Source of the DNA: a virus | Reading direction: 5' to 3' (one strand) | IMG/VR virus record: IMGVR_UViG_3300018074_000013 | Location: 1 to 33,910 of that record | DNA length: 33,910 nucleotides | Part shown: positions 4,308-26,089 of the stretch, one piece after another | Position numbering within the stretch: position 1 is the stretch's first letter | Layout of the letters: every line of letters starts with the position of its first letter | Program-made: the position numbers and the translations under genes | Notes under the pieces: model-generated | What the model was told of the DNA's origin: nothing | What the model saw: only the letters and a program-made list of their open reading frames with translations | The model's database searches: none

Positions 4308-5891
4308 GTGTCCGTCGCCCTCAGACACACAGCGGAGTACATTCCGCTCTTTAAGTGGCTTCTCCATGATTCCGTTCCGCCGTTCGCTGGATTCGAGTCG
4401 TCCCCGGCAGAGAACGGATGGGCGATGCATGATTCCGTCCCTCCGTTCCAGAGTTTTGAGCCGGCCCCCGCGGCCGACACCTGGATACTTCACGATTCGA
4501 TCCCACCGTTCCGGGATTTTATTCCGGAGATCCCCGTCACTCGCTTTCTCGTCCACCCGTGGGAGGCCCTACGAGGTATTCTGCGCGACAGGACTCAACC
4601 CTGGGAGTCTTTTGGCACACAGAGTCAGGTCGCTGAACAGTTCTGGGAGGCGATGGCGAGAATCCAGAAGACCGATCAGCAGTTCTGGGAATCGCTCCTC
4701 GGTGTGCGCCCGACCGCGGCTCAGCCTTGGGAGGCGCTTTCCGGAATCCGCCCGACCGCGGCTCAGCCTTGGGAGGCGCTTTCCGGAATCCGCCCGACCG
4801 CGGCTCAGCCTTGGGAGGCGCTTTCCGGAATCCGCCCGACCGCGGCTCAGCCTTGGGAGGCGATGGCGAGAATCCAGAAGACCGATCAGCAGTTCTGGGA
4901 ATCGCTCCTCGGCCTTCGACCAGTTGCGGTTCAGCCCTGGGAGGCCTTGTCGTCTATTGCGAGTGGAGTGTCTCAGCCATGGGAAGCTATGGCTCTCATC
5001 TCGAGAGCGGCCGTGCAGCCCTGGGAGGCTATGGCACTCATCGCACGCATCGCGATGCAGCCGTGGGAGAGCCTACTAGGCCTCGCGCGGACGGCGGCGC
5101 AGCCGTGGGAATCGCTTCAGGGTATACGGCCAATTGTCTCACAGCCCTGGGAGGCGATGGCCATCATCACTCCTCTCGCAGCCCAGCCATGGGCCTCCGG
5201 GAGGACTCAACAGGCATCGGCCGGTCAGCCATGGGAGAGCCTGGTCCAGCTCGCTCGAATGGCCGCACAACCCTGGGAATCGCTAGCGACCGCGCTCCGG
5301 ATCGCTGGACAGCCCTGGGAAGCACTCCTCGGTCTTCGCCCTCTCGCCCAGCAGCCGTGGGAGGCTGGCGGTACACAGCAGAACGCGGCGATTCAGTCCT
5401 GGGAGGCGATGGCCCTACGTCAGGTCTCCGCCGGGCAGACGTGGGAGTCCATCCGGAGCGTGCTCCGAACCGCGGGCCAGTCATGGGAGAGCCTTGTTGC
5501 CCTGACCCGGACCCAGAATCAGTTCTGGGAATCTCTGATAGGTCTATCGGCGTTTGCCCAGCAGCCATGGGCATCCACCGGGGTGATTGTGGTCACGGCT
5601 GCTCAGCCGTGGGAATCGAGGGTTCTTCTGGTCGTCTCAACGGCCCAGCCCTGGGAGGCTCTGGTTGGCATATCTCGTCAGGCCGCCCAGCCCTGGGAGG
5701 CGAGGAGCATGAGGACCGCTTTCGCCATTCAGCCTTGGGAGGGTATAATCAAGCTTGTATTTGATGGTACCGTGGTCAATATTTGGTTCGTTCCTATTGG
5801 TGGAGCGGGCTGGCAGATACCTTCAGGTGGTAACATCTGGACCGTACAGGATGACGAGGATCTCTGGACTGTACCGAAGGGGGAGGAGTAG
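4308..5891 (+). CDS. Trp-Glu tandem repeat protein, 527 aa
   Basis: GTG start one base after the upstream stop. Residues 20-82 are three 21-residue repeats, each starting HDS[VI]PPF. Residues 83-488 are 29 consecutive, gap-free 14-residue repeats with consensus QPWE[AS][LM]xGIRxxAx. The Trp is present in every copy, and Glu in all but two. The C-terminus (490-527) has further Trp motifs (IWFVP, GWQIP, IWTVQ, LWTVP). There is no signal peptide and no cysteine in the array. Lengths of 14 and 21 are multiples of seven, so an amphipathic helical or solenoid rod with a Trp stripe is possible. It may be a virion fibre or spacer protein, like its neighbours, and the following gene resembles a fibre adaptor. 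No family recognised; function inferred from context only. Confidence 0.85.
   Translation: MSVALRHTAEYIPLFKWLLHDSVPPFAGFESSPAENGWAMHDSVPPFQSFEPAPAADTWILHDSIPPFRDFIPEIPVTRFLVHPWEALRGILRDRTQPWESFGTQSQVAEQFWEAMARIQKTDQQFWESLLGVRPTAAQPWEALSGIRPTAAQPWEALSGIRPTAAQPWEALSGIRPTAAQPWEAMARIQKTDQQFWESLLGLRPVAVQPWEALSSIASGVSQPWEAMALISRAAVQPWEAMALIARIAMQPWESLLGLARTAAQPWESLQGIRPIVSQPWEAMAIITPLAAQPWASGRTQQASAGQPWESLVQLARMAAQPWESLATALRIAGQPWEALLGLRPLAQQPWEAGGTQQNAAIQSWEAMALRQVSAGQTWESIRSVLRTAGQSWESLVALTRTQNQFWESLIGLSAFAQQPWASTGVIVVTAAQPWESRVLLVVSTAQPWEALVGISRQAAQPWEARSMRTAFAIQPWEGIIKLVFDGTVVNIWFVPIGGAGWQIPSGGNIWTVQDDEDLWTVPKGEE
4365..5771 (+). repeat. In-frame 63-bp and 42-bp coding repeat array
   Basis: Three 63-bp units (4365-4553) are followed without a gap by 29 units of 42 bp (4554-5771). 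All are in frame and encode the HDSxPPF and QPWE repeats. Because 42 is a multiple of three, the other two frames stay open too, giving a long spurious overlapping frame at 4727-5764. Most units have diverged at synonymous sites, so the array is old apart from a recent homogenised core. Confidence 0.9.
4707..4863 (+). repeat. Near-identical 42-bp tandem repeats
   Basis: About 3.7 copies of one 42-bp unit (units starting near 4708, 4750, 4792 and 4834; core GGCTCAGCCTTGGGAGGCG) are identical at the DNA level. A separate 59-bp stretch at 4644-4702 recurs exactly at 4854-4912, a distance of 210 bp or five units. This indicates recent slippage or unequal recombination within the gene, so copy number may vary between related phages. 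It is also a place where short-read assembly could miscount. Confidence 0.85.
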
Positions 5892-10498: not shown

Positions 10499-10735
10499 AT
10501 GAATCTGAGCGATGAGAGACTCGATGAGATTCTTTTGAAATTGATCCGAGGAGAGCACCCGGATCATAAGGACCTGGAACGAATCATCCTTGAGTTGAAA
10601 TGTCAGCGATCGAGGACATGGATGTGGTTGTTGCAGCCTCAGCCTTTGCAGCCTTACTATATTTACCCGAACCCGAACCAGCCACCATCGGTATTACCCA
10701 TCTACTGCGAGACTGGCGGCCTTGGCGACTGCTAA
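10499..10735 (+). CDS. Unknown small protein with Pro/Tyr-rich tail, 78 aa
   Basis: ATG behind AGAAAGGGAGAACA, a good SD. Residues 1-40 form an acidic/basic helical region (MNLSDERLDEILLKLIRGEH). Residues 41-70 switch to a Pro/Gln/Tyr/Trp-rich stretch (LLQPQPLQPYYIYPNPNQPP), ending near a cysteine. The stop overlaps the TTG start of the MuF gene. Another frame (10600-10773) is open across the second half, so the exact C-terminus is less certain than the start. No function recognised. Confidence 0.6.
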   Translation: MNLSDERLDEILLKLIRGEHPDHKDLERIILELKCQRSRTWMWLLQPQPLQPYYIYPNPNQPPSVLPIYCETGGLGDC

Positions 10736-12791
10736 CGAGAAGCTCCTCCGGGTCTCCCTCCGTCACCAGGTAGATGTCCGCAGGTTCGCGGCCGGTGAGG
10801 TACGGGCGATCTTGCGCCTCCTTGAGGGGGCGGATCGGGAGTTGGTCGAAAAGCTTCGGGTGCGCCTCGCCCGCCTCGGGGCAGTGACTGACTTCACCAG
10901 CCGGCGATATCGGGCCGTGCTTGAGGAGATCAGGGAACTGCGCCGTACGGTCGTGGACGCGGTGCGGCGCCGGACTGCGGGGAAGCTCGAGGCGCTCGCG
11001 GCCCAAGAAATCCGGGCCGAGGGCAGGGCCATCAAGGCATCCATCCCGATCCGCGTCGAGTTGGCCCGCCTCCCGATTCAATCGGCCGCGGCCATCGCTA
11101 CCGAGCGCCCGTTCCAAGGGAAGCTCCTCGGGGAATGGTTCTCCGAACTCCGGGCAACTGACCAGCGGAACCTCGTCCAAGAGATCCAGCTCGGGTTGGC
11201 ACAGGGGGAAGGGGTACAGCAGATCGTTCGCCGGGTGGCTGGGACCCGCGCCAATGGGTTCCAGGACGGAGTCCTGGCGATCACCAGGAGGAATGCGGAG
11301 GCGGTGGTGCGGACCGCGGTGAACCACGTCTCAAATGCGGCCCGAGAAGCGGTCTGGGAGGGCAACGAGGATATCGTATCGGCCCTCCGGTGGACGGCCA
11401 CCCTTGATGGCCGGACATCTGCGATCTGTCGGTCCCGAGACGGGGCGCTCGTGATGCTGGACGATCGGCCACTGCCGGAGGGAGAGCGAGCACTGGAGCC
11501 AAATGGGGCGCGGCCTCCTGCCCACGTAAATTGTTTACTTGGCGATAGTTATGTATTGCCCTGTGGCGGGATCACGGCCGCTATGAAACGGTTTTATGCA
11601 GGAGAGATTGTGGTCATCCGCACGGCGTCGAAACACGAACTGACCTGCACCCCAAATCACCCGATACTCACAGATCGAGGATGGGTCGCAGCGAAGCTCC
11701 TGGATCGCAGCGACCGCGTAATCTGCTACCTTGGGAGTAAGGATCCATTTAGCGGTGTCGAACACGAACACCAGGATGGACCATCTCGAATCGAGAATGT
11801 AGCGCGTCCGCTTCTCGAAGGTCCGGGTATGAATTTGGTCTCGACTTCTGGATGCGACTTCCACGGCGATGCGATCGATGGCGAAGTCTGTATTATAGGG
11901 ACCAAAAGCCTTCTGAAACGTGTCGAAGCAGAGCCCGCGCTCCAGCATCATATCGTTAAACAATCTCTCGAGAGTAGAGGATCGAGAGTCCATCTTTCCC
12001 TCCCTGGTTCTGGCACTAAGGCATTTCTCCTGGAGAGACCTCGTTCGTCCTCTAGACGCAATATGGGCGGCCGAAATCTGGGCCGCCCTATCCTCCGGTG
12101 TTCTTCTATCCCAGATTCCCTGATTAGCCTCACAGCCTCGTCTTCTCTTCTCGGGATCTCTCCATGCCAGGCGACGAGCCTCTCCGGCACTTCGTCTCGA
12201 TATTCCTCGTTCCTTGAGAATTCGATAGAGGACGATGTCCGAGAATTCGCGATTTCGGCAGATGTCATGGACTCCCTCTCCGGACACGTATCGTGTGACG
12301 AGATCGTCGATATCGAACGGCGTGATTTTTCGGGCCACGTGTTTAACCTCCAAACCGGTTCCGGAATTTATTTTGCCACATTCGGTAACATAATAACACA
12401 TAACTGCCGATCCGTCATGGTCTCCGTGATCGATGGTGAGGCCCTGGTGGGTAACCGGCCCTTCGTCAGCGATGCCCGCCGGCCAGACGAGCGTCTGGCT
12501 GACTTCCGGGCCGAGGCTAGGCGCACCGGACGCCCGATCGGGGAGATCCGCGAGGAATGGGCCGATGAGAACATTGGGAGCGTGCCGGCCAAGATCACTT
12601 ACGGGGAGTGGCTCGGGGACCAGTCAGCAGCGTTCCAAGACGAGGTCCTGGGTCCAACCCGCGGAGCACTATTCCGTCGCGGCGGGCTGGAGATCCATGA
12701 GTTTACTGATCGGAGGGGAAATGAACTGACCCTCGAGGAGCTGGAGGCCCGGCACGGCGATGCCTTTGAAGAAGCGAACTTAGGGGATTGA
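10722..12791 (+). CDS. MuF-like head morphogenesis protein interrupted by an intein
   Basis: SPP1 gp7/Mu gpF-like minor head protein that binds the portal. TTG start at 10722 gives the usual N-terminus (ATANEKLLRVSLRHQVDVRR); no ATG is available upstream in frame. Extein residues 1-270 are helical, then the MuF core WTATLDGRTSAICRSRDG (224-241) and PPAHVN (265-270). The conserved H-x-N-C-R-S motif is split: after N270 comes a 291-aa intein (271-561), and C562-R-S continues the extein to residue 689. After splicing the protein would be 398 aa, normal for the family. The intein tract is more AT-rich than the exteins. Confidence 0.9.
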   Translation: MATANEKLLRVSLRHQVDVRRFAAGEVRAILRLLEGADRELVEKLRVRLARLGAVTDFTSRRYRAVLEEIRELRRTVVDAVRRRTAGKLEALAAQEIRAEGRAIKASIPIRVELARLPIQSAAAIATERPFQGKLLGEWFSELRATDQRNLVQEIQLGLAQGEGVQQIVRRVAGTRANGFQDGVLAITRRNAEAVVRTAVNHVSNAAREAVWEGNEDIVSALRWTATLDGRTSAICRSRDGALVMLDDRPLPEGERALEPNGARPPAHVNCLLGDSYVLPCGGITAAMKRFYAGEIVVIRTASKHELTCTPNHPILTDRGWVAAKLLDRSDRVICYLGSKDPFSGVEHEHQDGPSRIENVARPLLEGPGMNLVSTSGCDFHGDAIDGEVCIIGTKSLLKRVEAEPALQHHIVKQSLESRGSRVHLSLPGSGTKAFLLERPRSSSRRNMGGRNLGRPILRCSSIPDSLISLTASSSLLGISPCQATSLSGTSSRYSSFLENSIEDDVREFAISADVMDSLSGHVSCDEIVDIERRDFSGHVFNLQTGSGIYFATFGNIITHNCRSVMVSVIDGEALVGNRPFVSDARRPDERLADFRAEARRTGRPIGEIREEWADENIGSVPAKITYGEWLGDQSAAFQDEVLGPTRGALFRRGGLEIHEFTDRRGNELTLEELEARHGDAFEEANLGD
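11532..12404 (+). mobile_element. Intein in MuF, 291 aa, with nested antisense endonuclease gene
   Basis: Self-splicing protein element. It begins with Cys (block A CLLGDSYVLP), has block B TCTPNHPILTDRGW with TxxH at intein residues 40-43, a block F-like segment DFSGHVFNLQTGSGIYF, and ends in block G NIITHN followed by extein Cys: a class 1 Cys1/Asn-Cys+1 design. Only about 68 N-terminal and 37 C-terminal residues look like splicing domain. The 185 residues between have no LAGLIDADG or HNH motif and are Ser/Arg/Leu-rich filler. The opposite strand carries an endonuclease gene over almost the whole element. Insertion is at the catalytically or structurally conserved HVN/CRS motif, as is typical for inteins. 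Confidence 0.9.
11535..12338 (-). CDS. Antisense Vsr-like (EDxHD/PD-(D/E)XK) homing endonuclease inside the intein
   Basis: 267 codons from GTG (complement of 12336-12338) to TAA, the complement of intein codon 2. GGAGG (complement of 12347-12351) lies eight bases before the GTG. An upstream in-frame ATG, the complement of the intein's penultimate His codon, gives 288 aa but has no SD. Domains: N-terminal HTH (about 9-55, DDLVTRYVSGEG...ILKERGISRRS), basic linker, then a nuclease core: E124 (STLERLF), QKAFGPYNTDFAID with D151, IAVEV with E160, H170, RTRYILDSRWSILVF, and a C-terminal EYRVIWG. This matches the layout of phage homing endonucleases related to Vsr/I-Bth0305I. The usual 'GG.WH' after VEV is not seen, so activity is uncertain. 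It would cut intein-free MuF alleles. Confidence 0.8.
   Translation of the reverse strand: MARKITPFDIDDLVTRYVSGEGVHDICRNREFSDIVLYRILKERGISRRSAGEARRLAWRDPEKRRRGCEANQGIWDRRTPEDRAAQISAAHIASRGRTRSLQEKCLSARTREGKMDSRSSTLERLFNDMMLERGLCFDTFQKAFGPYNTDFAIDRIAVEVASRSRDQIHTRTFEKRTRYILDSRWSILVFVFDTAKWILTPKVADYAVAAIQELRCDPSSICEYRVIWGAGQFVFRRRADDHNLSCIKPFHSGRDPATGQYITIAK
12347..12418 (-). promoter_or_regulatory. Candidate minus-strand promoter and SD for the antisense endonuclease
   Basis: Read on the minus strand: -35-like ATGACG (complement of 12413-12418), a 17-base spacer, -10-like TATTAT (complement of 12390-12395), then about 40 bases to GGAGG (complement of 12347-12351) and the GTG. The -10 matches five of six sigma-70 consensus bases and the -35 four of six. 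The -35 lies in the C-extein and the -10 in the codons of block G (NIIT), so the element spans the junction. The SD uses the codons of block F (FNL). Pattern match only. Confidence 0.45.
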
Positions 12792-21809: not shown

Positions 21810-23927
21810 ATGGCCACTGAACGCATCGTAATAGAGATATCCGAGAGTGGGGCTCGCACTGTGAATCGTAGCCTCGAGGGTATCGGACGAACTGCCAGTG
21901 GGACGGGGCGCTCGATCGGCTTGCTTCGCCAGGCTCTGGTTTCCTTGGGCGCTGCCTTCGCGCTCCGGGTTACAGCCCAGTTCGGAGATGCCCTGGCCCG
22001 GGTCAGGGCCGTTAGTGGACTCACCGCTGATGCATTCTCCGATCTGAGGGAGGAAATCCTTCGGCTCAGTGCGGCCAGCGGCACAGATCCGGCCGGCGCA
22101 GCCCAGGCCCTATTCCAGCTCCAAAGGTCCGGGCTCGGTGCCGCAGCCGCCATGAAAACTCTGAAACAAGCCATGAAACTAGCAGATGTTGGAGGCCAAT
22201 CCCTGGCCGAGAGCACCGAGGCTGTAGCGCGGGTAACGACCGCCTTCGGCGTAACCGGCAAGCAGGCGGCAAACGTCCTAGGGGCAGCGTCTCTGCGAAG
22301 CCAGGAATCGGTCACGGAGCTAACCGCGAGCATCACCAGGTCGGCCAACGCGGCACGGGCGGCCAACGTCGGGCTGGAGGACGTGACGGCCGCGATCATC
22401 ACTCTGAGTCGATCCGGGGCCGAGGGGCGTATCGCCATAGCTGGCCTTCGCGAGGGCCTTGAGGCGCTTGAGACTCCGACCCAGAAGGAAAGGGCGCTCT
22501 TCCAGGAGCTCGGACTGAATCTCGATCGGCTTCGCCCATCGGTGACAGGGATTACCGGTTCCCTCCAGGAGCTGGCGCGGGCCGGCGTGAGTTTTGAGGT
22601 CCTCGGGGTACGTGGTGGTGCCGCCCTGGATGTTCTCGCCGCCAGGACGGGCGACGTGCGGGATCTCGTCGAGGAGATGGGCCGTGCCGGGAAGATCACG
22701 GACGACTTCGCTAAGGCGATCGACGAGTCGCTGGGCAAAGCGTTCAAGGAGCTATTGGCCTCGGTAAAGGCCCTGATCCTTTCCTTCGGCGGCGAAGGCG
22801 GCGAGGCGGGCCTTGCCGCCGCCGTGCGGGTGGTGGCGGAGGAGATTCAAGGTCTTGCGGTAATTACTGGCCAAGCCAGCCAAGGTCTCCAGCGATTCTT
22901 CGAGTTCTTCACCGTCGCCCAGGAGGACAAAGTCGAGAGAGCCCGGCTCAGGACCGCCGGATTGAGGGTGGAGATCGAAAAACTCATGAGGACGACGCGC
23001 GCGGGGGCGGAAGCGCGCGGCATCATCGAAATCGGCCCCCCCTCGCCAGTATCTACCACCCTGGACGAGGCATTTCCCCAGCGCGCTCGTGCGCCCACCC
23101 GCGAGGAGCGGCTCCGGACGGGGGAGGCCGGGGCACTGCGCGCCGAGGAAGAGGCGATCAGGAGGCGGAGCGCGATCCGGGACCAGGCGATAAGCCAGGC
23201 ACGAGAGATCGCCGACCAGCAGGATAGGCTCCGCATCTCGGAGGAGGCTTTGATAGAGGCAGTGAACCTTGGGACCGTCTCCCGGCAGCAGGCAAACCGG
23301 GCCCTAGCGGAACTGAGGCTCCAGATGCCTGAGGCCATTTCCGGGCTTCAGGGCATGCAGGCAGCGCTCTTCGCCGTGGACACCTCCGCCGGGGCGCTCG
23401 GTGCATCGATCGGACAGTCGCTGGTCGGGGCGATTGATACGGCGAGTGGGGCGCTGGCTGAGTTCGCGATCAGTGGCGCTAGGAACACGGAGGATCTCCG
23501 GGAGGCATTTGCCAAGCTATTGGAGGATTTGGGAAAGCAAATCTTGCAGTTAATTATAAAAACATTGATTCTCAAGGCGATCCAGATAGCTATAGGTGAT
23601 GTAGCGGGGGGAGGTGGGGGTGCAGCGGCGCCAATACTTACTGGGAGCAGCCTTGGAACCGGGTTCCAGGCCGGCGGGCCAGTGAGGCGCGGTCAGATCG
23701 GTCTAGTTGGCGAACGGGGTCCAGAGTTAGTACAATTCGGAGGAGCCGGACACGTGGTGCCGGCCGGAGAAACCGCTGAGATGCTGGAACCTCAGGTAAA
23801 TATTCGGGTTATAAACGTAACAGATCCAAACGAGATCACGAGCACGATGAACAGTCCGACTGGCGAGCAGGTGATCCTGAATGTCCTAAGTCGGAATGCA
23901 CGAGCGATGCGGAGAATCCTGGGATAA
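21810..23927 (+). CDS. Tail tape measure protein
   Basis: Sets tail length and is injected ahead of DNA. ATG with CTGAGG close upstream. 705 aa, mostly alpha-helical and Ala/Arg/Glu-rich. Residues about 40-280 have the TP901 core-like pattern: FGDALARVRAVSGLTADAF, SAASGTDPAGAAQALFQLQR, ALAESTEA-type TTAFGVTGKQAANVLGAASL, and SRSGAEGRIAIAGLREGLEA. Then a coiled-coil part (QAREIADQQDRLRISEE). A hydrophobic segment ILKAIQIAIGDVAGG comes before the C-terminal GGPVRRGQIGLVGERGPELV motif, which is common at tape measure ends. The length corresponds to a tail in the order of 100 nm. Confidence 0.9.
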   Translation: MATERIVIEISESGARTVNRSLEGIGRTASGTGRSIGLLRQALVSLGAAFALRVTAQFGDALARVRAVSGLTADAFSDLREEILRLSAASGTDPAGAAQALFQLQRSGLGAAAAMKTLKQAMKLADVGGQSLAESTEAVARVTTAFGVTGKQAANVLGAASLRSQESVTELTASITRSANAARAANVGLEDVTAAIITLSRSGAEGRIAIAGLREGLEALETPTQKERALFQELGLNLDRLRPSVTGITGSLQELARAGVSFEVLGVRGGAALDVLAARTGDVRDLVEEMGRAGKITDDFAKAIDESLGKAFKELLASVKALILSFGGEGGEAGLAAAVRVVAEEIQGLAVITGQASQGLQRFFEFFTVAQEDKVERARLRTAGLRVEIEKLMRTTRAGAEARGIIEIGPPSPVSTTLDEAFPQRARAPTREERLRTGEAGALRAEEEAIRRRSAIRDQAISQAREIADQQDRLRISEEALIEAVNLGTVSRQQANRALAELRLQMPEAISGLQGMQAALFAVDTSAGALGASIGQSLVGAIDTASGALAEFAISGARNTEDLREAFAKLLEDLGKQILQLIIKTLILKAIQIAIGDVAGGGGGAAAPILTGSSLGTGFQAGGPVRRGQIGLVGERGPELVQFGGAGHVVPAGETAEMLEPQVNIRVINVTDPNEITSTMNSPTGEQVILNVLSRNARAMRRILG

Positions 23928-23934
23928 TGAAAGC

Positions 23935-24275
23935 CCCAACCCACGCCCTACCGCGCTTCGCCTGCCGAGCCGTGCCGGGCCGTGCCCAGCCGTGCCCAGC
24001 CACACCTGCCAAGCCGCGCCGTGCCTTACCAAGCCGCGCCCAGCCTTACCATGCCGAGCCATGCCGATCCACGCCTGCCATGCCTTGCCGGACCACGCCA
24101 AGCCGCGCAATGCCTTGCCAAACCGTGCCATGCCTCGCCTGCCATGCCTTGCCGGATCGTGCCGTGCCCTGCCGTGCCGCGCCCTGCCGAGCCGAGCCCT
24201 GCCTGCCATGCCTTACCGAGCCAAGCCAAGCCAAGCCACATGCCGAGCCGAGCCGCGCCACGCATACAATGTTCT
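23935..24275 (+). repeat. Non-coding GCCNN pentanucleotide array with 64-bp higher-order period
   Basis: This 395-base gene-free stretch between the tape measure and tail-tip genes is almost entirely GCCNN units (GCCGA, GCCGT, GCCAA, GCCAT, GCCTT and so on), with rare 4-base GCCT units that shift the phase. The block GCCTGCCATGCCTT recurs at 24073, 24137 and 24201, exactly 64 bases apart. Plus strand is C-rich, minus strand G-rich. All three plus frames are open, but the 5-base period makes any translation a rotating low-complexity string with no SD, so it is treated as non-coding. Function unknown. Confidence 0.85.
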
Positions 24276-24322
24276 GCCAGTGCAGTACATGATACGATGT
24301 TTACGACAGAGGATGCAAGCTA

Positions 24323-26089
24323 ATGCCCATTGACACCGGAACTGCGACATCGTACATAGACCTCCTCAACCAGCTCCGCCTGTTCTCGACTGGCACTTCC
24401 GCCGCTACCGCCGTCGTCTCCGCCGGCGGCACAGGCTACACTGTGGGCGATGTTTTGACCCTGACCGGCGGGACCTTCTCGAAGGCCGCACAACTCCGGG
24501 TCACAACGGTCGCCGCCGGAGTGGTTACTGGCGTCGTAATCCATAGGCATGGCGTGGCTTACACCGTGAACCCGTCGAACCCAGTCTCCTCCACCGGCGG
24601 CACCGGGACCGGCGCCACGTTCACGGTGACATTCGCCTCGGTTGGCTGGAGCACCAAGCGCGAATCGAAGGAGGCCGTTTCTGCCACTGTAAGTGCCGGT
24701 GGAACCGGACACGCCGTAAATGATATCCTGACGCTCGTCGGTGGAACCGCCCCGGTTCTGGCTGCGCAATTTAAAGTAACAGCCATAAGCGCCGGCGCCG
24801 TAACGACGGTCGTCCGGTGGTCCCGGGGCAATTACCCTGAGACCCCGGCCAATCCAGCTTCCACCACTTCCTCGGGCGCTGGCACTGGATGCACTCTGAC
24901 GGTCATCTATCAGGTAGTGCTCCTCGATTCGGATCAAGAGATAAGTGCCGCAGCCATTGTCTCGGGTGGAACCGGTTATACTGTAGCCGACATTCTCACT
25001 GTTACTGGTGGAACATTTACGACCGCCGCCCAGCTCAGGGTCCTCACGATTTCCGCCGGAGTGATTACGACAGTGGCGGTCCACACAAAGGGCGAGTACT
25101 CGATCAATCCGACGAACCCGGTAAGCGTAACGGGCGGCACCGGCACTGGGGCGACGTTCAATCTGACTTTCGTCGGTGTCCATCCGGATAACAATAAAGA
25201 GCTGATCCTCGAGGGAGTCGGTTCTGGAGCCGATCAGGTGTTCGTCGGCATGCGGACCGAGCAGCACGACCCGAGCGGGTCGCGCTACTGGAACCTGGCG
25301 GGCTTCACGGGCTACCAGGCCGCATCGACCTTCGATACGCAGCCGAGCCGATCGACCGTCGGGGCGCTCTTCACGAACAGCCTCGCCTCCCAGACCTACT
25401 GGTTCTTCGCGAATGGGCGCCGAATCATAGTCATAGCCAGGATCGGCTCCTCCTACCTGAGCTGTCACCTCGGATGGATTAACCCGTTCGCAACAGCGAT
25501 TCAATATCCGTACCCCATGGCGATCATCGGGTGCTCCTCGACATCGATCCGCCTCCCCTCCGAAACCGGGATCAGCCTAAGCGGGATCGTGGATCCAATC
25601 GGGCATACTAGCAGTGCCGTAGGCCCGGCCTTCATCCGGGATCCTGGGGGGAGCTGGAAGATAATCAAGAACAGCGAAGAGATTGGCGGAGGGGCCAGGA
25701 ACTACACGAGTGATCTCAATCTCTTTCCCGCTGGATCCGTGGACAATGGCGGAGCGGGGTTCAACCCCCAGGACTTTTCAGGCGGGGCATACACGACCCG
25801 GACCTTCGTGCCAGTAACCGGCAGCCCGGGGACGGTGACGATCAGGCACGCGCAGATACCGGATTCGCCGAACCACAGGTCGATTCTTTTCCCGACTATG
25901 ATCGTTGAGCGGACGCCCGTGCAGCAGGCGTATGGGGAACTGGCCGACGTCTATTGGGTCAGCACGCTCGGGAACGTCACGAATCTTGTAGCGGAGGATC
26001 TGATTGTGAGTGGGACCGATAGGTATATCGTCTTCCAGCAGGCGAACAGATCCGATCTGCATGCGCACTTCGCGGTGAAGGAGGGATAG
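24323..26089 (+). CDS. Tail-tip/fibre-like protein with three GGTGYTV modules, 588 aa
   Basis: ATG behind AGAGGATGCAAGCTA. N-terminal 25 residues (IDTGTATSYIDLLNQLRLF) resemble those of the next gene (YETGVASSQEDFLTKLSTF). Residues 32-104, 122-196 and 212-283 are three GGTGYTV beta modules. From residue 290 (NNKELILEGVGSGADQVFVG) the protein again follows the next gene's layout, including YWFFANGRRIIVIARIG against YHFFAGSVFLHVALEYA. It is therefore a paralog of the 26105 gene with a module cassette inserted near the N-terminus. No signal peptide. Position after the tape measure suggests a distal tail or fibre protein. Confidence 0.75.
   Translation: MPIDTGTATSYIDLLNQLRLFSTGTSAATAVVSAGGTGYTVGDVLTLTGGTFSKAAQLRVTTVAAGVVTGVVIHRHGVAYTVNPSNPVSSTGGTGTGATFTVTFASVGWSTKRESKEAVSATVSAGGTGHAVNDILTLVGGTAPVLAAQFKVTAISAGAVTTVVRWSRGNYPETPANPASTTSSGAGTGCTLTVIYQVVLLDSDQEISAAAIVSGGTGYTVADILTVTGGTFTTAAQLRVLTISAGVITTVAVHTKGEYSINPTNPVSVTGGTGTGATFNLTFVGVHPDNNKELILEGVGSGADQVFVGMRTEQHDPSGSRYWNLAGFTGYQAASTFDTQPSRSTVGALFTNSLASQTYWFFANGRRIIVIARIGSSYLSCHLGWINPFATAIQYPYPMAIIGCSSTSIRLPSETGISLSGIVDPIGHTSSAVGPAFIRDPGGSWKIIKNSEEIGGGARNYTSDLNLFPAGSVDNGGAGFNPQDFSGGAYTTRTFVPVTGSPGTVTIRHAQIPDSPNHRSILFPTMIVERTPVQQAYGELADVYWVSTLGNVTNLVAEDLIVSGTDRYIVFQQANRSDLHAHFAVKEG
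24416..25171 (+). repeat. Three tandem GGTGYTV coding modules, copies 3-5
   Basis: Copies at about 24416-24634, 24686-24910 and 24956-25171, each 72-75 codons. Shared marks are S[AG]GGTG[YH][TA]V.DILTLTGGT, AQ[LF][RK]V..[IV][SA]AG.[VI]T..V, P.NP and G[TA]GTG.T. Copies 3 and 5 are closest to copies 1 and 2; copy 4 has drifted (GGTAPVLAAQ, SSGAGTGCT). Linkers of about 16 residues hold charged segments such as STKRESKEAV. Confidence 0.85.

Follow-up and report, generated by a model that had tools for sequence, protein, structure and literature searches.

The head gene and its intein

The window, meaning the whole stretch of 33,910 nucleotides of IMG/VR virus record IMGVR_UViG_3300018074_000013 that was analysed, carries a gene for a phage minor head protein interrupted in frame by an intein, with a second gene on the opposite strand of the intein (Table 1). 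The head gene was matched by Pfam Phage_Mu_F (4e-11) and by PHROG 241 (1.8e-124). The intein is inserted at PPAHVN|CRS, and in 812 of 1118 phage records an intein-free homolog could be aligned over the junction. Empty alleles of the site read PPAHPN|CRS and PPAHMN|CRS, which indicates a precise insertion. The exteins of ten less typical loci were checked and were also MuF or portal-MuF head genes.

The intein was matched by TIGR01445 and by Pfam Intein_splicing, the latter under its curated cut-off. The window has C1, the block B TPNH (TxxH), the C-terminal THN and the C+1 nucleophile, and Cys1, His43 and Asn291 were invariant across 43 family inteins. The AF2 model of the sense intein had high confidence at its two splicing ends but was poor in between, and its best PDB matches among those listed were inteins or related HINT domains (top E 7e-4). 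On the basis of its motifs, modelled fold and precise insertion the element can be classed as an intein with a HINT splicing domain that is predicted to splice. Its GC content was 52.6% compared with 60.4% for the genome.

Elsewhere in the window, 42-bp tandem repeats (14 codons) with GGGAGG were found at 4707-5069 inside a long plus-strand ORF (4308-5891), and a degenerate short-repeat array (GCCATGCCG-like) at 23963-24261 lies in a region of several overlapping ORFs (23896-24333).

Table 1 Positions of the head gene, the intein and the antisense gene with its putative start signals
Feature	Position	Strand	Remarks
MuF/SPP1 gp7-type minor head (head morphogenesis) protein gene with in-frame intein	10722-12791	+	Pfam, PHROG
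Exteins of the MuF-type head gene	10722-11531 and 12405-12791	+	
Intein, 291 codons	11532-12404	+	Cys1 (11532-11534) to Asn291 (12402-12404)
Intein block F codons HVFNLQ	12336-12353	+	CAC GTG TTT AAC CTC CAA
Intein block G codons NIITHN	12387-12404	+	
C+1 Cys of the C-extein	12405-12407	+	intein/extein border 12404/12405
Antisense homing-endonuclease-like gene (HEN), 267 aa	11535-12338	-	N-terminal HTH region and predicted Vsr-fold nuclease domain
HEN stop codon TAA	11537-11535	-	reverse complement of intein Leu2 TTA
Conserved nuclease residues Glu124, Asp151 and Glu160 of YNxD..AVE	11859-11969	-	putative active site
HEN start codon GTG	12336-12338	-	opposite block F His CAC; family alignment begins here
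Shine-Dalgarno (SD) GGAGG	12347-12351	-	8 nt before GTG; from block F AAC CTC C
-10 box TATTAT	12390-12395	-	reverse complement of block G ATA ATA (Ile-Ile)
-35-like ATGACG in the C-extein	12413-12418	-	17 bp from the -10; at chance level and perhaps irrelevant

The antisense gene and its family

The HEN stop codon stands opposite intein Leu2 in the window, so that the entire gene is contained within the intein. In general the stop is written opposite a TTA, CTA or TCA codon that the intein uses for Leu or Ser. The antisense ORF was matched in 121 phage records (tblastn, E<=0.01), mostly under the head genes of Jerseyvirus and other Guernseyvirinae and of phages of Vibrio, Gordonia, Pseudomonas, Klebsiella, Haemophilus and Aggregatibacter. 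Scans of IMG/VR gave approximately 150 more HEN loci, and species genomes gave a few more. HEN relatives were also seen on contigs of Chloroflexi, Thermoleophilia, Micromonospora, Glycomyces and Aggregatibacter genomes (L183, L184, L187, L188 and L189), and these contigs are probably prophages.

The HEN sequence of the window alone gave no useful match to Pfam, NCBIfam or PDB sequences, and family profiles were needed. The family profile matched I-Bth0305I (3r3p, E 1.9e-5), while Pfam MTES_1575 was found in 51 of the 62 HEN members and DUF559 in 19. An AF2 model of the protein (pLDDT 88) resembled Vsr (1cw0; Z 10.9, rmsd 2.4 over 111 residues) and I-Bth0305I (Z 9.7, rmsd 2.8 over 94 residues). 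Asp151 and Glu160 were invariant in 62 HEN homologs and Glu124 was conserved in at least 90% of them. The His of EDxHD is part of the family consensus (WH) but is missing at that place in the window. From the modelled fold of the catalytic domain and the acidic residues, the HEN can be assigned to the Vsr-like (EDxHD, I-Bth0305I-type) endonucleases, and it is predicted to cleave the intein-free allele. The first-pass annotation had read the minus-strand ORF as an endonuclease gene, and this was borne out by the family conservation, by the Vsr fold and by the codon-position and stop-avoidance tests given below.

Two members of the family are free-standing (L011:2156-3046 and L165:2453-3394). 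Each is located tail-to-tail with an uninterrupted MuF gene that has an empty intein site (MCKCRA), and these HENs may target the MCKCRA site without an intein.

Coding on both strands

The sense frame was open over the whole HEN, in a single codon-on-codon register, in 131 of 134 loci, a set that includes a few overlapping fetches from one contig. Two familiar arrangements were set aside on this evidence. A split intein or fractured gene does not fit a sense ORF that is continuous in the window and in those 131 loci, and a conventional intein with a nested in-frame endonuclease does not fit an endonuclease that lies on the opposite strand in 131 of 131 intein loci.

Any TTA, CTA or TCA codon in the HEN would create a stop in the sense frame. 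Among 3074 Leu and Ser codons of HENs inside inteins none was of this kind, compared with 523 expected, and the sense frame is thus kept stop-free, whereas the two free-standing relatives outside inteins had them at 12/39 and 13/42. The location of variable sites in the Guernseyvirinae changed along the gene in step with the coding. In the exteins they fell at the third position of the sense codons (0.88), in the middle of the HEN they shifted to sense position 1, which is HEN position 3 (0.63 vs 0.12 and 0.32), and in blocks F-G they were back at sense position 3 (0.60). Comparison among the loci shows both strands of the intein to be under selection, the HEN frame being conserved as a protein and the sense frame being protected from stops, as judged from these codon patterns.

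At locus L027 the sense frame does not span the HEN and 3 sense-stop codons were found among 33 Leu/Ser codons; L027 is either a decaying intein or a sequence error. A DFHGD motif on the sense strand (11850-11870 and equivalents) was conserved in these inteins. It seems to be no more than a reflection of the HEN motif AVE(V) from the opposite strand and could mislead intein annotation.

Start signals in the window

On the minus strand, the first-pass annotation had pointed out a GGAGG eight bases before a GTG, both within the codons of block F (HVFNLQ), a TATTAT within those of block G (NIIT), and an ATGACG in the C-extein 17 bases from the TATTAT. All of these positions were confirmed, the TATTAT being exactly the two Ile codons ATA ATA. 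Together with a TG contributed by the adjacent Thr codon ACA (12396-12398), it forms an extended -10 (tgtTATTAT).

Taken alone, the window was weak evidence and only partly bears out the start signals, with the SD and the -35 at chance level and the -10 moderately above it. Against a null of synonymous codons the SD was unremarkable for these amino acids (p=0.29), GGAGG or CCTCC occurring 183 times in the window, and the ATGACG gave p=0.44. The -10 and joint promoter scores gave p=0.007 and 0.010, and 0.033 with matched local AT3. ATA makes up 15% of the Ile codons in long ORFs of the window. A simple promoter scan of a 1.4 kb region found this promoter-like site only, while shuffles gave 0.7 such sites per region.

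Start signals across the family

A family test set of 81 loci was assembled, non-redundant at the DNA level and with recognisable blocks F and G as assigned by profiles and patterns; about 20 loci whose blocks F or G were not recognised by pattern were left out. The null kept the protein and redrew the codons from each locus's own usage.

The HEN start codon stood opposite the block F His in 58 of the 81 loci (53 ATG from CAT, 5 GTG from CAC), and this His was CAT in 53 of the 58 where 26.7 were expected. Loci without a block F His had another His within 4 codons in 15 of 23 cases, compared with 2 of 58 for the others (p=6e-9), and in 3 loci a Gln CAA supplies a TTG start. The block F Leu, whose CTC codon yields the GAG of the SD, was CTC in 50 of 70 loci (15.0 expected). 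The block G Ile was ATA in 25 of 45 (7.8 expected). A codon giving TG (NCA or GTA) stood two residues ahead of the final Asn in 44 of 75 (13.1 expected), the NCA form yielding an extended -10.

The joint test of the block F-G codons against the synonymous null gave an antisense promoter score of p<0.05 in 49 of the 81 loci (Fisher 8e-45), with promoter matrices and spacing penalties that were approximate, entered by hand and not fitted. A perfect TATAAT was present in 32 loci. The proportions of loci at p<0.05 in control regions were 5% for the N-extein, 2% for the C-extein, 5% for the HEN middle, 6% for the N part of the intein and 11% for the HEN N-terminus. The sense strand of the block F-G segment itself gave 11% (Fisher 1.4e-3), a mild composition effect. 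With a null weighted towards the AT content of third positions in the local sequence, the sense strand was flat (0.61), while the antisense strand still gave a Fisher value of 1.7e-30. Family loci share ancestry, which identity-filtered subsets lessen but do not remove, and with only HENs less than 35% identical the promoter test gave p=3e-11 (n=19). Twenty-one ordinary inteins, a control set assembled by motif search, were put through the same test and none was significant or had a TATAAT.

The bases of these signals had been expected from the first reading of the locus to be conserved among homologs beyond amino-acid need if they were functional, and this held for the SD, the start codon and the -10 and was missing from the ordinary inteins. 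That the start signals of the HEN are embedded in the codons of the splicing blocks and selected beyond amino-acid need is strongly supported, since the comparative data from the 81 loci lie far above chance while neighbouring regions and ordinary inteins are flat. At the family level a -10 with either a -35 or an extended -10 was above chance on the antisense strand only, as for a predicted sigma-70 promoter. The sigma-70-like boxes were weak or absent in the Gordonia, Klebsiella and some other members, so a sigma-70 promoter in this form is not universal.

Promoter layouts and alternative explanations

In 52 of the 81 loci the boxes lay at one of two fixed distances from C+1, +12 or +31, giving two layouts. 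In class 1 (31 loci including the window) the -10 has a constant position within block G and is often an extended TGnTATAAT. In class 2 (21 loci) the -10 is located 19 bases further along, within the F-G linker, and the -35 is in block G, where the box was enriched (Fisher 6e-10) and at best reads TTGACA. The whole class 2 promoter, its TTGACA in block G and its TATAAT in the linker, lies inside the intein. The window lineage is of class 1, with a predicted promoter (tgtTATTAT) that has a weak -35.

The first-pass annotation had proposed that only an intein in its proper insertion site may have a complete promoter, tying expression of the endonuclease to integration. The -35 position of class 1 loci, the window among them, does fall in the C-extein, and good boxes are present at this position in a few loci (L029 TTGACG, L002 TTGAAC). 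Boxes at this position, however, were not above synonymous chance (n=31, Fisher p=0.36; the p=0.44 of the window agrees), many of the class 1 -10 boxes are extended and the class 2 promoters do not extend beyond the intein. Promoters with an extended -10 (TGn) usually need no -35. The gating idea fails in that nothing shows the extein half of the promoter to matter and class 2 does without it, and we regard it as unlikely.

A second alternative is that a longer antisense transcript serves to express the HEN, or that the HEN starts at an upstream ATG (12401), and that the embedded signals are not used. The antisense frame of the window is indeed open upstream to 12401 and beyond, giving an open frame of 362 aa. 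Against this, the antisense frame was closed by stops upstream of the HEN start in 43 of the 81 loci, where the conserved upstream stretch is therefore non-coding, family members share a start at the block F codon and ATG 12401 is located upstream of the predicted -10. A longer HEN from ATG 12401 was set aside given the family start and the closed upstream frames, and the alternative as a whole is very improbable.

It might also be argued that the ATA, CTC and CAT codons serve the sense side, either the intein or the mRNA of the head gene, for instance through rare-codon pausing or RNA structure, or that they form a fixed endonuclease recognition site. Block G often has ATA, a rare Ile codon that could delay translation ahead of splicing. 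A constraint of this kind does not predict the shift of the class 2 TATAAT to the F-G linker together with a TTGACA in block G, start codons that have moved to a different His or to a Gln CAA, or a codon bias missing from other inteins, and it is very improbable. Chance or composition, by which an AT-richer mobile element happens to show an antisense TATAAT and GAGG, can draw on the lower GC content of the intein and on the chance-level SD and -35 of the window, but it is contradicted by the local-AT3-matched null, the flat flanking and HEN regions, the ordinary inteins and the fixed box positions, and is barely credible.

A proposed antisense-endonuclease intein

The explanation that we consider very probable, from the comparative sequence data, is an intein with a splicing element on its sense strand, a stand-alone Vsr-fold HEN opposite it and the start signals of the HEN in the splicing codons, a layout repeated in many phages that are only distantly related. 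The sense strand would encode an intein in a phage head gene that only has to splice itself out, and the opposite strand would encode the HEN in exact codon-on-codon register. Transcription of the HEN would proceed from a sigma-70 promoter in the block F-G codons, of either the class 1 or the class 2 layout, and translation would begin at the complement of the block F His codon with the complement of the block F Asn-Leu codons as SD. It is plausible that the HEN is transcribed independently of the late head operon and probably earlier, the timing being a reasonable guess. The enzyme would then cut intein-free head genes and drive homing, and empty alleles are common.

It is likely, at a somewhat lower confidence, that this is a distinct and widespread class of mobile intein in which one segment holds a splicing domain, an autonomous HEN on the opposite strand and a complete promoter, SD and start codon in the splicing-motif codons.

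Relation to known systems

Homing endonuclease genes in antisense orientation have been described from nuclear group I introns of Didymium (Dir.S956-2 and Dsq.L2066), where the gene likewise lies opposite a self-splicing element and is thought to be expressed from its own promoter (PMC9548176). Those elements are RNA introns in rDNA whose sense strand codes no protein and whose antisense gene is transcribed by the eukaryotic RNA polymerase II; unlike the intein described here they have neither double coding nor signals inside splicing-motif codons. Conventional large inteins (LAGLIDADG/HNH) are similar in being mobile and in having a HINT splicing domain with the endonuclease between blocks B and F. 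Their endonuclease is a domain of the intein polypeptide, whereas here it is a separate protein from the opposite strand and the sense linker is only a shadow of the HEN, partly of low confidence in the model.

In fractured genes the inteins are reportedly split with an endonuclease gene between the halves. These and I-Bth0305I (PDB 3R3P) share the Vsr-like fold with the HEN and are tied to inteins or introns in phage-type genes; the antisense-HEN intein, by contrast, has an unbroken sense gene that its endonuclease overlaps on the other strand. Vsr-like endonuclease genes near split inteins are attributed to Dassa et al. 2009 as cited in PMC3229294. The free-standing genes of Acinetobacter phage P1068 (L011) and L165 belong to the same HEN family and adjoin an uninterrupted MuF gene with an empty site, and differ in that the HEN is not in an intein, lies tail-to-tail downstream of the head gene and uses TTA, CTA and TCA freely.

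Inteins in the MuF-type head gene have been annotated in some phages (PMC8425127), and the L010 record also annotates an intein in this head gene. None of the public phage records examined with the intein form annotates the whole endonuclease gene, and one has a short fragment; the HEN family is consequently largely absent from phage annotation. No description of an intein with an opposite-strand endonuclease, with or without embedded start signals, was found in the open-access literature, where an earlier mention is possible, and the arrangement is apparently both widespread and undescribed.

If the proposed arrangement is true, inteins would have a second means of carrying a homing enzyme. 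With a promoter, SD and start codon of its own in the splicing codons, the HEN would be made early and without dependence on the late structural gene, which would solve a timing problem for a selfish element in such a gene by making the nuclease from its own promoter. The combination of double coding and regulatory coding in one stretch across many phages would also be a strong natural case in which the evolution of overlapping genes can be measured.
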